Shown one piece after another: positions 6,091 through 53,124 of a stretch of 64,000 bases of DNA. Both the position numbers and the translations under genes were made by a program. Numbering within the stretch: the stretch's first letter is position 1; each line of letters opens with the position of its first letter. Source of the DNA: an uncultured Ardenticatenia bacterium (GTDB taxonomy: Bacteria; Chloroflexota; Anaerolineae; 4572-78; NAK82); NCBI GenBank assembly GCA_937127125.1, contig CAKZLO010000032.1, forward strand, positions 62,001 to 126,000. The letters run 5' to 3'. Below the pieces are notes generated by a model. The model searched no databases. It was given only the letters and a program-made list of their open reading frames with translations, and was not told where the DNA came from.

Positions 6091-7620
6091 ATGTCTGTGA
6101 TGAGCTATGATGCATATAAAGCTGCATTCCTTAGCTGGAATAGTATTGTTACTGAGGATCCAAGACGTCTGCGCGATCCGTCGAAAATAGTCCTTGCTCC
6201 CGACGTGATCGTCGCGTTGCGGGTGCTTCAAAAATACTACAAGCTATTTATCTTGGCACACCAGCCCAGCATCACGGTAGAAGTAAGCGACTCTGCTCAG
6301 ATCGCCCATTTCCATGAGGATGTGCTGCAGCGTCTCGCTCACTATGGCGTTCAGGTTGAGCAAGTAATTAGTTATGTGAAAAACTCTCTGCATCCTTTCA
6401 TTGAAGTCGCTGAGGAGCGCAGGCTGGACTTGCCTGGGTCTCTTTGCATAAGCGATCGATCGCAGGACATAAAACTGGCCGGCCAAGTTGGTGCACGGGG
6501 CATTTATGTTATGAGTCGGAACAGCACCCAGACATGCCCAGATCTTCCCCCCGACTCGCTGATTGTCGTTGATATCTGGGACGCAGTGTTGCACGCGATG
6601 GAGATGCATCTTATCCAGCACAGGCAGCCTGCGCTATCGGATATAGAGCGAGCAGCTGAGATCTTGAGAGAAGGTGGAATAGTTGCATTTCCTACTGAGA
6701 CTGTCTACGGTCTTGGCGCAAATGCGCTCGATCCTATGGCTGTGGCACGAGTCTTTGAGATCAAGCGGCGCCCTCGCTTTGATCCGTTAATCGTGCACGT
6801 GGCTGACCCGCGCCAAGTGAACACTCTTGTTTCACAACTTCCTGGACAGGCGCAGAAATTGATAAATCTCTTTTGGCCAGGACCATTGACCATTGTGTTG
6901 CCCAAGAGCGACCGAGTCCCCGACATCGTCACCGCAGGGCTTTCGACCGTGGCCATTCGTATGCCCGACCATCCCGTTGCTCTGACCCTAATTCGCAGAT
7001 CGGGTGTGCCAATAGCGGCTCCAAGTGCTAATCTATTCGGCCACGTCAGCCCGACAATGGCAGAACATGTTTACCATCAGCTAGGTGATGCAGTTGACTT
7101 AGTGCTGAACGGCGGTCGCTGTCCGATAGGCATTGAGTCCACTGTGATCTCTGTTTCAGATGACGAAGCTGTGCTTCTACGTCTGGGTGGTTTGCCGGTC
7201 GAGGAACTCGAGCGTGTCATCGGTCCAGTGCAACGTCATATTAGGACGCAAGCGTCTCCTAAGTCGCCCGGTCAGCTTCCGCATCATTATGCGCCCCGAA
7301 CTCCTCTAGTGCTAAGAGATCGTAATGCTCCCGAACTTACACGACGGTGTGGTTTATTGTCTTTCACCGAGCCGACAAGTGCGGAGGGTTTCGTTGCTGT
7401 CGAAGTGCTCTCCAAGTCAGGGGATCTACGCGAGGCAGCTGCCAACTTGTTTGTTGCGCTTCATCGGTTGGATTCTATGCAACTTGAGCTTATTGTGGCG
7501 GAACTCGTTCCCGAGGTTGGCCTTGGGCAAGCCATCAATGATCGTCTTCGTCGCGCCGCACACAAGGGTGGCATCGGTTCCACTGGATCTCGTGAAGTGT
7601 CCGACGAGTCAAGAGCGTGA
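6091..7620 (+). CDS. Threonylcarbamoyl-AMP synthase (TsaC/Sua5) with N-terminal degenerate HAD-like domain
   Basis: The C-terminal 320 residues are a full Sua5: the YrdC fold (GIVAFPTETVYGLGANA, KRRPRFDPLIVHV, APSANLFGHVSPT, NGGRCPIGIESTV) plus the Sua5 tail with SPGQLPHHYAPRTPL. It makes threonylcarbamoyl-AMP for t6A37 of tRNAs. The first ~180 residues look like a heptose-bisphosphatase-type HAD fold: YKAAFLSWNS where family members have FLDRDGT, RDPSKIVLAPDVIVAL, then ISDRSQDIKLAGQVGA near the expected acidic motif. Both catalytic aspartates of the DxD motif are Ser15 and Asn17, so phosphatase activity is unlikely. ATG 6091 was chosen because a TATAAT lies at 6060. The fusion is unusual; the Sua5 call is firm, the HAD relation is inferred from pattern. 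Confidence 0.85.
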   Translation: MSVMSYDAYKAAFLSWNSIVTEDPRRLRDPSKIVLAPDVIVALRVLQKYYKLFILAHQPSITVEVSDSAQIAHFHEDVLQRLAHYGVQVEQVISYVKNSLHPFIEVAEERRLDLPGSLCISDRSQDIKLAGQVGARGIYVMSRNSTQTCPDLPPDSLIVVDIWDAVLHAMEMHLIQHRQPALSDIERAAEILREGGIVAFPTETVYGLGANALDPMAVARVFEIKRRPRFDPLIVHVADPRQVNTLVSQLPGQAQKLINLFWPGPLTIVLPKSDRVPDIVTAGLSTVAIRMPDHPVALTLIRRSGVPIAAPSANLFGHVSPTMAEHVYHQLGDAVDLVLNGGRCPIGIESTVISVSDDEAVLLRLGGLPVEELERVIGPVQRHIRTQASPKSPGQLPHHYAPRTPLVLRDRNAPELTRRCGLLSFTEPTSAEGFVAVEVLSKSGDLREAAANLFVALHRLDSMQLELIVAELVPEVGLGQAINDRLRRAAHKGGIGSTGSREVSDESRA

Positions 7621-7797: not shown

Positions 7798-8889
7798 ATG
7801 AAAGCTCTAGTGAAATCCTATGGCAAGACAGGTCTGCGTTACGTCACAGATGCTCCCGTTCCAGAGGTTGGGCCACGCGACGTGTTGGTGCGAGTGTTAG
7901 CCGCCTCAATTTGCGGGAGTGATTTGCACATTTACGATGACGATCCTGTTTTTCGCGACCGCATCACCGATGGCATGATAGTTGGTCACGAGTTTTGTGG
8001 TCGTGTCGAGCAGATAGGAGAGCAAGTAACCACAGTTGCGGTAGGTGACATCGTCGCAGTGGAGAGCCACGTAGTATGCGGAACGTGCTATTATTGCCTC
8101 AATGGGGTGCCGCACCTGTGTCAGGAAGTGGCTGGCATTGGATTTGACCGTCCAGGCTGTTTTGCCGAGTATATTGTCATCCCATCCGAAAATGCCTTTC
8201 CCAAGCCGCCCTATCTTTCCATTGAGGTGGCAGCCTTCATAGAGCCATTCGGCAATGCGCTTGACACTGCACTGTGCGTCGACCTTTTCGGAAAGACTGT
8301 ACTCATCACTGGCCTGGGCCCTCAAGGCTTGATGGCATTGGCCGTTGCACGCGCCGCTGGCGCACGATGTGTCATCGGAACCGAGATCCACCCTTATCGT
8401 CGTGACATAGCCCAGCAGGTGCTCTCCTTGCACACCGATCCGCGTCGCCCCACACTAGATGCCATACTGGATGCAGCGCAACCTGACCTTGCTGAGCAGA
8501 TTTTTGAGATCACCGATGGGTTGGGCGTGGATATCGTTTTAGAGATGTCTGGGAATAGTGCTGCCATCTCTTTGGCAGGCACAGTGTTGAAAAACAGCGG
8601 TCACTTGGTAGCACTTGGTCTGCCCAGTCAGCCTGTCGAATTCGATTGGTCACATCACCTGGTGTTGAAAGGCGCAACAATACATGGGATCTATGGTCGT
8701 CATCTTTATCAGACATGGTTCACTGCGTGTGAACTACTTGCGTCACGGACCGTCCAGCTGGAATCGCTGATCACCCATCGCTTGCCACTCGAACGCTTTG
8801 AGGAGGGCTTTCAGCTGCTCAAGCAAGGTCGGGCGGTCAAAGTGGTGTTGTATCCCAATGGAAGCGCTACGGAGAAAGGACAGGAATGA
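7798..8889 (+). CDS. tdh: Zinc-dependent medium-chain dehydrogenase, L-threonine 3-dehydrogenase-like
   Basis: NAD-dependent oxidation of a secondary alcohol; closest by eye to L-threonine 3-dehydrogenase, giving 2-amino-3-ketobutyrate. Catalytic zinc region CGSDLHIYDDD and GHEFCGRVEQIG, structural zinc motif with four cysteines CGTCYYCLNGVPHLC, and the Rossmann region TGLGPQGLMALAVARAAG. 363 residues is normal. GGAGAG lies nine bases before the ATG. The partner enzyme glycine C-acetyltransferase is at 25864-27048, not adjacent. The gene overlaps the following response regulator by four bases (ATGA), so the three genes form one transcription unit. Sorbitol or butanediol dehydrogenase activity cannot be excluded. 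Confidence 0.8.
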   Translation: MKALVKSYGKTGLRYVTDAPVPEVGPRDVLVRVLAASICGSDLHIYDDDPVFRDRITDGMIVGHEFCGRVEQIGEQVTTVAVGDIVAVESHVVCGTCYYCLNGVPHLCQEVAGIGFDRPGCFAEYIVIPSENAFPKPPYLSIEVAAFIEPFGNALDTALCVDLFGKTVLITGLGPQGLMALAVARAAGARCVIGTEIHPYRRDIAQQVLSLHTDPRRPTLDAILDAAQPDLAEQIFEITDGLGVDIVLEMSGNSAAISLAGTVLKNSGHLVALGLPSQPVEFDWSHHLVLKGATIHGIYGRHLYQTWFTACELLASRTVQLESLITHRLPLERFEEGFQLLKQGRAVKVVLYPNGSATEKGQE

Positions 8890-9806
8890 ACGAGAAAGTC
8901 AGCATCCTTGTAGTAGACGATAGCCCCAGTTGGTGTGCCATCTACCAGGAAATGCTCGGGGACGCTGGTTATTCGGTTCGTATAGCCACTGATCTAGCGC
9001 AGGCCCTTGGGAGCCTTAATGAGCAGTTCTTCCATGTTGCCATTGTGGACATTCGTTTGGACAACGGTGACCGTGACAACGTGCAAGGCATCCAAGTACT
9101 ACAACGCATCTGGGAGCTAAATGAGGGCACAATGGCAATTGTCTCATCCGCCTATGCTACTGCCGAAATGTTGCCAGCTTTTATGTCGTACGGGATATTC
9201 GATTTCGTTGCCAAACGTGCGACCAATCCAGATGATCTAGCACGCCAGTACCGGTCGGCGGCGTTCATTCGCGGCACGATTGACAAATCTGGCTCGTTGG
9301 ATGAAAGCCTCAGGCGTATCCAACAAGCTGTGTCAGAAGCCCAGCGCATCGCCAGCAGTCAGAAATGGCTGATCTCACCCTTCCGCATTTTCAAGGGGTT
9401 CAACGGACGCAGTGTACAAATGCTTCTCAAGGGAGCAACTATGGTTGAATTGCGTCCGTTCTTGGGGCGGCTCAGTCGGCCGCTGTATCCATGGTTATAT
9501 GGAGCAGACGACGCTGTTATCATTAGGGACGAAGCGGATCGCGCGTTAGCGATTGAAGGCTATCTATGGAGCCGTGCACTGGCTATGCCAGTTGTGGTAC
9601 GCTTGGGAACGCGAGAGCATTTTGCTCACTCCTTGGAGATCGCTCCTTTTGGTACTGCATGGCACGGTGCGGAGACGGGTGAACCAATTTCGCATCTCAC
9701 CTCCTCCCACTTTGAGGGAGCAGTATGTCCTGTTCTTAACAAGCCATTCGTCAGCTCATTCCACCCGCCAGTGCCACGGCGCATAAGTAGGGGTGTCGGA
9801 TGGTAG
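8886..9806 (+). CDS. Response regulator with REC domain and unrecognised C-terminal output domain
   Basis: N-terminal receiver domain (residues about 5-120): acidic pair in VVDDS, phospho-acceptor Asp in VAIVDIRLD, switch residue region IVSSAYATA, and Lys in FVAKRA (the usual Pro after Lys is absent). A short helical stretch follows, then about 170 residues I do not recognise, with GATMVELRPFLGRLSRP and MPVVVRLGTREHF. No helix-turn-helix, GGDEF, EAL or HD-GYP motif is visible. Overlaps the dehydrogenase (ATGA) and the histidine kinase downstream, which is its likely partner. Confidence 0.8.
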   Translation: MNEKVSILVVDDSPSWCAIYQEMLGDAGYSVRIATDLAQALGSLNEQFFHVAIVDIRLDNGDRDNVQGIQVLQRIWELNEGTMAIVSSAYATAEMLPAFMSYGIFDFVAKRATNPDDLARQYRSAAFIRGTIDKSGSLDESLRRIQQAVSEAQRIASSQKWLISPFRIFKGFNGRSVQMLLKGATMVELRPFLGRLSRPLYPWLYGADDAVIIRDEADRALAIEGYLWSRALAMPVVVRLGTREHFAHSLEIAPFGTAWHGAETGEPISHLTSSHFEGAVCPVLNKPFVSSFHPPVPRRISRGVGW

Positions 9807-11962
9807 AACACCACGACCTAATCCGCATCAGCCAGAATCTGATGCGTGAGCTTCTTCAGCCGCAAATTAACTTGGTGCGCTTCTTCCAATACGTGCTAGA
9901 TCAAACTCTGGACGTCTTGGAGTTCGACGTCGGCTGGATGCTTCTTAAAGAAGGAGATTGGTTGCGTATTGTCGCGGCGGATACACAGCACAGTGAGGAC
10001 GTAGGGCGCACCTTTCTGATTACTGATTGCCTTAGCGGCCTCAGCATGTTGCAGAAAGGCCCCATCAATGTACCCGATCTGGCTGCTATGCCTGAGGAGT
10101 GGCGGAGTATTTACAAGGCGCCAACAGGTGAGGGGATGCAAAGTGAGTTGGTGATCCCTTTGTTGATTGGCGATGAGGCAATAGGGGCTTTTAACATCGA
10201 AAGTTATCGTAAGAATGCCTTCACAGCCCAGCACGTCGAAGCACTCAGTCTGCTTAGCGGTCAGGTAGCAGCAGCGGTAGCGCTGGCACGTTCACGTCAG
10301 GAGGCAGCAGCGCTCAGCAGTGTAGGGCTCGACCTCTCGCGGCAGACCGAAATGGATGAGGTGGTGCGTTCAGTATTGACGCACGCGCTCGCACTGGTGC
10401 AAGGCCGTTTTGGTCAGGTGTTGTTGCGCTATGGAGACGTGTTGACCGTGCGATTTACCACCAATCAGCCACCTGAGGATCTGAATCTGGTGGTAGATAT
10501 CGACGACAGTGTCTGTGGTCTGGCAATCCAGCATTTGAGGCCCATCATTGTGCCAGATGTCACCCGTCCGGACTATTTGGTAGTGCATATCAAACCAAGT
10601 GAAGCTGGCTGGTCGGGTGAACTGGTCGCCCAGCGCACTGCCCAGCCACGTTACAAGCGCGCGCTCGAGGCAAATAAGGCGAGCATTTGTGCAGAGTTCG
10701 CCGTCCCAGTGTGCTATGGAGACCGCGTCGTCGGTGTCTTGAATGTAGAGACCCCGCGCCGTACTGGATTTAGCGAAGAACAACGCAGGCAGCTACTCGC
10801 TCTGGTAGAAATGCGATCCGAACAGCTGGTGAGAGCGTTGACACGCTTGGATCGGGCCCAACTACTGGAGCTGTTGCGCGAGGCGCTCATATGTACAGAG
10901 ACCAACTTTGGTCAGATACTGCGCCCTGAAGGAGACTATCTGGTAATCGAGCAGACCACTGGTAGCGAGCGCATCGGCACACGAGTGTCTCTTCACCGTT
11001 CAGTCACTGGACGCGTCTTGCTCAGTGGAGCACCAGTATATGTGCCAGACGTAGCAAGCGATCCTGACTATCAACGTTACTTGGGCGAAGAGATGAAGAG
11101 CGAGCTAGTGGTACCCTTGATCATCGGTGATGAAGCGCTGGGAGTGCTTAATATCGAGAGCGCTGTGCCAGGCGCTTTCACCCTCGACCACGCACGCATC
11201 CTAGAGGCCTTCGCCAATCAGGCAGCGGTGGCGATTGACCGTGCGCGTCGTTTTGAGAGCCAGAAACTTGCCGAGCTGGGAAGATTGGCGGGTGATATTG
11301 TGCACCGTCTCAATAACCCGCTAGGAGCAATAAGTATGCAGGTTGACCTGTTCAAGCGCAAGGCGTTTTACCCACAAATGGTAGCACAGTATCCCTCCAT
11401 AGAACGCTTCCTCGAGCGCATTGAGGCAGATTTGATCAGTGCCAAAAAAACTATCCAGGAACTTCGTTCTGCTCTTAAAGCGCCACTTCCACCTCTACGC
11501 GAGATGTCTCTGGCAGAAGCCATTCATAAGGGCTTGGCGCGAGCTGAGCTCCCAGAATCCATCCGGCTCAGCTTCGATCTCCCCGAGGAGGAAGTATACG
11601 TGGTGGCTCACGAACGTCTGCTTAACGTGTTCTGGAACCTGTTTGACAATGCGCACAAAGCAATGCCTCAAGGAGGTGTACTACGTGTTGTGGTGGACAC
11701 CACTGTTGAGCCAGGATGGGTGGTAGTACACATACAGGATAGTGGAAGCGGGATTGAGCCATGGAGGCTGGATTCGATCTTCGAACCGGGAGAGGCAACA
11801 CCAAGCGATCCTTACGCACCAGCACATGGTCTGGGACTCTGGTGGACACGCACCCAGGTGGAAAGCTTCGGCGGGACAATCGAGGTTACCAGCATACCTG
11901 GAGCAGGCACGTGTGTTACACTGAGATTGCGAAGGGCAAGTGGTCAGAAAAGCACCCTCTAG
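9800..11962 (+). CDS. Cytoplasmic histidine kinase with three GAF domains
   Basis: Soluble sensor kinase without membrane segments. Three GAF domains (about 10-155, 175-345 and 355-480) share the ending pattern VIPLLIGDEAIGAFNIES / VPVCYGDRVVGVLNVET / VPLIIGDEALGVLNIES. Then comes a phospho-acceptor box HRLNNPLGAIS (NtrB-like) and an HATPase domain with N box FWNLFDNAHKAM, G1 QDSGSGIEP and G2 GLGLWWTRTQ. It starts inside the end of the response regulator gene (7-base overlap), so the pair is translationally coupled. GAF domains suggest a small-molecule or redox/light ligand inside the cell; the ligand cannot be read from sequence. Confidence 0.9.
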   Translation: MVEHHDLIRISQNLMRELLQPQINLVRFFQYVLDQTLDVLEFDVGWMLLKEGDWLRIVAADTQHSEDVGRTFLITDCLSGLSMLQKGPINVPDLAAMPEEWRSIYKAPTGEGMQSELVIPLLIGDEAIGAFNIESYRKNAFTAQHVEALSLLSGQVAAAVALARSRQEAAALSSVGLDLSRQTEMDEVVRSVLTHALALVQGRFGQVLLRYGDVLTVRFTTNQPPEDLNLVVDIDDSVCGLAIQHLRPIIVPDVTRPDYLVVHIKPSEAGWSGELVAQRTAQPRYKRALEANKASICAEFAVPVCYGDRVVGVLNVETPRRTGFSEEQRRQLLALVEMRSEQLVRALTRLDRAQLLELLREALICTETNFGQILRPEGDYLVIEQTTGSERIGTRVSLHRSVTGRVLLSGAPVYVPDVASDPDYQRYLGEEMKSELVVPLIIGDEALGVLNIESAVPGAFTLDHARILEAFANQAAVAIDRARRFESQKLAELGRLAGDIVHRLNNPLGAISMQVDLFKRKAFYPQMVAQYPSIERFLERIEADLISAKKTIQELRSALKAPLPPLREMSLAEAIHKGLARAELPESIRLSFDLPEEEVYVVAHERLLNVFWNLFDNAHKAMPQGGVLRVVVDTTVEPGWVVVHIQDSGSGIEPWRLDSIFEPGEATPSDPYAPAHGLGLWWTRTQVESFGGTIEVTSIPGAGTCVTLRLRRASGQKSTL

Positions 11963-53028: not shown

Positions 53029-53124
53029 GGGGGTGGATGTGTCCCGGTGGACGCCCCGGTCTTCAAAATCGGTGGGCGGTCGCGAGCAGCGAGCGCCGGT
53101 GGGTTCGACTCCCATCCACTCCCG
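53029..53124 (+). tRNA. selC: Selenocysteine tRNA (anticodon TCA)
   Basis: Fits the bacterial tRNA-Sec fold: 8-base acceptor stem (GGGGGTGG with CCACTCCC), 6-base D stem with a 4-base loop (GTGTCC/GGACGC), anticodon arm with loop CTTCAAA and anticodon TCA at 53063-53065, long variable arm (about 53073-53098), T arm with TTCGACT loop, and discriminator G. The 3' CCA is not encoded. It implies selenocysteine insertion at UGA codons, needing SelA/SelB/SelD elsewhere. No obvious selenoprotein gene was found beside it. Confidence 0.95.

Follow-up and report, generated by a model that had tools for sequence, protein, structure and literature searches.

A GmhB-like HAD domain without its catalytic residues is fused to Sua5 in a genus of Ardenticatenia

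Introduction

The tRNA modification t6A is near-universal, and its first enzyme is Sua5 or TsaC. Both carry a TsaC-like (YrdC) domain with a catalytic KxR/SxN tetrad, and a Pro signature separates Sua5 from TsaC, as defined in PMC10321239 and PMC9654439. The Sua5 proteins of P. abyssi (6f87) and S. tokodaii (2eqa) and TsaC2 of T. maritima (9d3h) are like the protein studied here in their TsaC-like and SUA5 domains, KxR/SxN residues, Pro signature, GVE-type motif (GIE here) and interdomain loop (PMC10321239). They differ from it in being without a 176-residue N-terminal HAD-like domain. Two smaller differences, D231 against Asn62 of P. abyssi and PGQ against PGM, recur in relatives without the fusion, L007 and L008 among them.

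Fusions of TsaC-like domains are already known from HypF and TobZ (PMC9654439, PMC10321239) and from TsaN. HypF (N-terminal acylphosphatase, Zn-finger, YrdC and Kae1-like domains), TobZ and TsaN (TsaD-TsaC-SUA5-TcdA, 8ide) all hold the domain within a larger polypeptide, as here, and in HypF a phosphatase-type domain likewise precedes YrdC, but it belongs to the acylphosphatase family and not to HAD (PMC9654439). The domain lists given for HypF, TobZ and TsaN in these sources contain no HAD domain. On the other side of the comparison stand the HAD-IIIA proteins GmhB and the HisB N-domain (3l8e, 2gmw, 3l8h, 2fpr), which have the same fold as our N-terminal domain and a weak but significant sequence similarity to it; they carry a nucleophile Asp, a motif III Lys and a zinc loop, all absent here, and they are not fused to Sua5. 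Literature searches limited to open-licence papers brought up no HAD-Sua5 fusion.

Here, we analyzed such a fusion gene in a 64,000-nucleotide stretch of DNA (the window) from an uncultured Ardenticatenia bacterium of the Chloroflexota, whose genome is called the window genome below. Its features are listed in Table 1.

Table 1. Coordinates of the fusion gene and its parts in the window; residues are counted from ATG 6091.
Feature	Position	Strand	Details
Fusion gene, GmhB-like pseudo-HAD and Sua5	6091..7620	+	509 aa from ATG 6091
HAD-IIIA/GmhB-like domain	6112..6618	+	residues 8-176 (about); sequence and structure matches
Place of motif I (DxDG)	6133..6144	+	S15-W16-N17-S18; DxDG in 38/38 aligned relatives
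Place of motif II ([ST]NQ)	6250..6264	+	residues 54-58, ILAHQ; A56 for Thr/Ser
Shortened stretch	6370..6399	+	residues 94-103; relatives carry the zinc loop CxH...CxC and motif III RKP here
Motif IV remnant	6451..6468	+	S121-D122-R123-S124-Q125-D126; GDxxxD in relatives
Joint	6574..6669	+	predicted in the model: last HAD helix 162-176, three residues, first Sua5 helix 180-193
TsaC-like (YrdC) domain	6658..7188	+	residues 190-366; PF01300
KxR of the catalytic tetrad	6763..6771	+	K225 and R227; motif as defined in PMC10321239 and PMC9654439
Sua5 signature Pro, then SxN of the tetrad	7021..7032	+	P311-S312-A313-N314
SUA5 domain	7198..7560	+	residues 370-490; PF03481
Interdomain loop	7267..7290	+	PGQ (393-395) and H399-Y400

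Results

The Sua5 half is complete and should be a working TC-AMP synthase

The reading frame runs without a break up to its stop at 7620, whether it is taken from ATG 6091 or from TTG 6043. The latter is in frame and could serve as a start as well, but the homologue in Ardenticatenia bacterium Nak82 begins with MERAVFL and does not support it. In the C-terminal two thirds of the protein, hmmscan matched PF01300 at 206.7 bits and PF03481 at 91.7 bits, both above the gathering score, and TIGR00057 was matched at 213.3 bits, above its cut-off. The tetrad, the Pro signature and the interdomain loop are all intact, and the first-pass annotation, made from the window sequence, had rightly called this half complete. 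The best of five full-length models (pLDDT 85.8, pTM 0.86; pLDDT spread over the five 85.8 to 64.5) aligned with P. abyssi Sua5 at Z 41.6 over 311 residues and with GmhB at Z 18.5, from an input alignment (A6) in which the final 8-10 residues of the HAD rows are still out of place. Two other full-length alignments (A4 and A7) were set aside for having their HAD rows misaligned onto Sua5.

The fused Sua5 is the sole TC-AMP synthase found in the window genome; the other PF01300 match there lies in a 796-residue frame, the size of HypF. TsaE was also found. With a single synthase found and TsaE present, the fused Sua5 should therefore be the working enzyme; in the genus as a whole, too, no other TC-AMP synthase was found. 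Judging by its family, the Sua5 half would convert threonine, bicarbonate and ATP to TC-AMP, which TsaD, TsaB and TsaE would then use.

Outside the genus, the searches of the order yielded 16 TC-AMP synthases, two of them in second copies as well (L104 and L106). Every one of the 16 is short and has the TsaC signature TSAN where the genus has PSAN. A tree places the genus among long Sua5 without the fusion, from other Chloroflexota and from one Acidobacteriota and one Spirochaetota MAG, and not with the TsaC of its family. Support is 97/92 for its sister group and a moderate 89/75 for the join, and the C-terminal domain, which TsaC lacks, accounts for part of the split. Of the named unfused Sua5, L007 of the Acidobacteriota is the nearest. 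We infer that in this genus the TsaC typical of the order gave way to a Sua5 from another lineage, a replacement of the sort described in PMC10321239.

The same fusion occurs in a second species of the genus

Nak82, a MAG from the Nakabusa hot spring (PMC6013628), belongs to the same genus as the window genome and has the same HAD-Sua5 fusion with the same downstream genes. Amino-acid identity between the two proteins is 73% in the Sua5 half and 38% in the HAD half, which is shorter in Nak82 through further deletions (163 versus about 180 residues). Both genomes are fragmented (85 contigs for the window genome; Nak82 is a MAG), and two genes might have been joined by a sequencing error during assembly or gene calling. 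This is extremely improbable, because the same continuous frame is found in the assemblies of two diverged species, and near the joint there is no in-frame ATG or GTG common to both genes; the sole shared start-type codon is TTG 192, inside a Sua5 helix. The intact frame and the second genome also in practice rule out a frameshift artefact, and with it the case, raised beforehand, of two separate genes that only appear joined here.

Among the genomes searched, fusion proteins were present only in the window genome (3.73 Mb) and in Nak82. The HAD domain matched 5 times among 61 relatives and a two-row HAD profile matched in 71 of 396 genomes of the class, with 2 fusions each time. Sua5 was matched in 18 of 25 genomes of the order. 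The full profile gave matches in 231 of 400 phylum genomes (a sample without Nak82), where among the listed places only the window genome matched from the N-terminus, and 393 genomes of the class of G545 gave 3 matches at E 1e-100 or better, none of them fused. These genome sets overlap; they cover samples of the order, class and phylum and one further class. Matches were judged from the ORFs at the loci read, which represent part of the class and phylum profile-search matches, and among these ORFs only copies of the window-genome and Nak82 genes matched both halves. G001, a third genome from the genus and 82% complete, yielded neither Sua5 nor TsaC. The plasmid records (112) yielded Sua5 homologues alone, none covering 80% of the query.

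Several candidates for other fusions were rejected: the long frames with a GmhB match in G249, G138 (two), G109 and G120 have no Sua5 joined to them, and a Sua5 match in G491 that begins at query position 135 has no GmhB joined. Separately, three other Chloroflexota have a GmhB domain near the C-terminus of frames of about 680 residues (L050, 1-2055; L114, 1503-3539; L117, 2104-4155), and Sua5 is absent from these frames.

The N-terminal domain is of the GmhB/HisB-N type and has lost the HAD catalytic residues

The resemblance of the N-terminal domain to a HAD phosphatase, proposed in the first-pass annotation, was upheld by significant matches of the window sequence alone to TIGR01656 (NCBIfam, 2.6e-7), HisB PRK05446 (8.3e-7) and GmhB PRK08942 (2.4e-5), all of them under the curated cut-offs of those models. 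Against the PDB, the HisB N-domain 2fpr was matched at 7.9e-4; with a two-sequence profile of the window and Nak82 domains the PDB match improved to 2.7e-5, and GmhB-type entries came next at 0.0019. For Pfam PF13242, the window domain is below the gathering score of 22, and the Nak82 domain reached 23.7 bits when given alone and 19.8 bits inside the whole protein. An AlphaFold2 model of the N-domain, built on a 40-row alignment, had a pLDDT of 85.7 and a pTM of 0.83. This model shows a predicted HAD Rossmann-type fold and aligned with E. coli GmhB (3l8e) at Z 18.7 and rmsd 2.4 over 164 residues (Foldseek was also run on it), with the qualification that the structure alignments contained GmhB rows, which favour a GmhB-like model, so that model and sequence evidence are not independent of each other.

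In 38 aligned HAD relatives, DxDG, [ST]NQ, RKP and GDxxxD are each present in 38/38 and CxH..CxC in 36/38, and DxDG occurs in 40/40 GmhB-type relatives read from loci, in a sample that leans to intact enzymes because the relatives were found with a profile seeded by DRDG proteins. From this set, L003-L005 were dropped as duplicates, and L051 and L052, with DxDG intact in both, were left out of alignment A3. The window domain reads F13-L14-S15-W16-N17-S18 at motif I, AHQ at motif II and SDRSQD at motif IV, and it is without RKP and without the zinc loop. The Nak82 domain has FQDT, TDH and SSRLSD at the same places and is likewise without RKP and the zinc loop.

Thus, Ser15 and Asn17 do occupy the places of the DxD, as had been noted. 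Nak82, the one other fusion found, has F-x-D there, and hence no homologue found with the same fusion has an intact DxD. The motif IV aspartate that the first-pass annotation described as kept (D122) is Ser in Nak82; the window domain has both acidic residues, D122 and D126, and D126 alone is shared, being common to all 40 rows. The losses also go further than had been described, since the Thr of motif II has become Ala and both RKP and the CxH...CxC zinc loop are gone.

By the established HAD mechanism, the phosphatase reaction needs the nucleophile and the lysine. As the nucleophile Asp and the motif III Lys are absent, HAD phosphatase catalysis is not expected of the window N-domain. Both residues and the zinc loop of HAD-IIIA/GmhB are missing from both fusion proteins, so the loss is most simply older than the split of the two species; independent loss is also possible.

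The HAD domain is constrained at the protein level

We compared the two fusion genes codon by codon. Over 162 aligned codons of the HAD half, identity at the three codon positions was 0.61/0.61/0.35, compared to 0.27/0.27/0.26 with shuffled pairing, and 8/28 shared fourfold codons were identical, compared to 7.7 expected. In the Sua5 half, the codon-position identities were 0.80/0.86/0.36, and 45/144 fourfold codons were identical, compared to 36.5 expected. The dN reached 0.53 in the HAD half, as opposed to 0.19 in the Sua5 half; dS of the fusion gene is not computable by NG86 or YN00 owing to saturation, hence no dN/dS ratio is given. With silent sites close to saturation and the first two codon positions of the HAD half still conserved, selection has kept the domain as a protein; an unconstrained stretch would have lost its frame and its identity. 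Furthermore, 64 residues are identical between the two fusion domains and joints (to residue 188), of which 24 are frequent among GmhB relatives as well and the other 40 uncommon there, and these 40 suggest new constraints that the pair has in common.

Constraint without catalysis leads us to propose a non-catalytic module. We think it probable that a functional Sua5 bears at its N-terminus a GmhB-type HAD module which is catalytically dead, does not act as an enzyme, and stabilizes Sua5 or docks a partner. The module, joined helix to helix through a three-residue turn in the model, would be a non-enzymatic attachment, and it may serve Sua5 stability or the docking of a partner, e.g. the TsaBDE complex; this last step is the one of which we are least certain.

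The faster change of the HAD half (38% against 73% identity; higher dN) would also be consistent with a domain that is being lost. In that case the fusion would be accidental and the domain useless, weakly constrained since a misfolded extension harms the essential Sua5, and it would eventually be lost; the far greater divergence of this half, the loss of its catalytic residues and the further deletions in Nak82 all agree with such a course. We regard it as rather unlikely, because the frame is intact in both lineages and codon positions 1 and 2 stand at 0.61 although synonymous sites are saturated, and because the 40 shared residues off the GmhB consensus would be unexpected if only ancestral fold residues survived. 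The constraint could be merely on folding, sparing Sua5 from harm.

Protein-level selection as read from these sequences would be equally compatible with partner docking, stabilization and ligand sensing. HAD clefts bind phosphate esters, and pyrophosphate is a product of Sua5. The former cleft, in a HAD fold that is kept in the model, might thus bind a phosphorylated metabolite, pyrophosphate or a nucleotide without hydrolysis and so tune TC-AMP synthesis. This is improbable, since the two fusion proteins do not have the same cleft residues (window/Nak82: S/F at 15, N/D at 17, A/T at 56 and D/S at 122), contrary to what a common ligand site would lead one to expect. As for tRNA binding in particular, which had been suggested along with partner binding, nothing in the data points to tRNA.

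Returning to the dead module that stabilizes Sua5 or docks a partner, we can extend it only tentatively: it is possible, although doubtful, that this genus took up a HAD pseudophosphatase to serve the first t6A enzyme as a docking or allosteric module, and that a domain missing from unfused relatives thus controls the TC-AMP supply or passes it on. A lineage-restricted dead phosphatase domain on an essential enzyme is a small natural experiment, located at the very point where the genus would have swapped TsaC for Sua5. Should the domain dock TsaBDE or hold TC-AMP, it would bear on the hand-over of a labile intermediate; should it prove to be ballast, it would be a plain example of an essential gene tolerating a fusion.

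Origin of the HAD domain and neighbourhood of the gene

The GmhB-like domain would have been joined to Sua5 before the two known species split. With the GmhB profile, no GmhB-like ORF was found beside sua5 or tsaC in the loci read (flanks of 1.5-3 kb where the contig allowed), and a neighbouring GmhB gene in unfused relatives was accordingly rejected as the source of the fusion. In a midpoint-rooted tree, a branch of 2.03 leads to the pair of fusion domains, which falls outside the 38 GmhB rows in a long-branch placement, so this tree gives the pair no position within GmhB. G001 and Nak82 keep a separate intact GmhB (L061 and L062), and therefore the fused domain is not the only GmhB of the genus. 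In the window genome no separate GmhB was found at E 1e-10; it was lost or is missing from the assembly.

Behind sua5, the window encodes a threonine-dehydrogenase-like enzyme, a response regulator and a GAF histidine kinase in overlapping frames (7798-11962), of which at least the first two follow sua5 in the same order in Nak82 (L006). Elsewhere in the window, a selenocysteine tRNA gene was found at 53029-53124 using ARAGORN and Rfam (RF01852, 71.9 bits). SelB matches above the cut-off were obtained in the window genome and in two congeners, and together with the tRNA gene they indicate that the genus probably makes selenoproteins.
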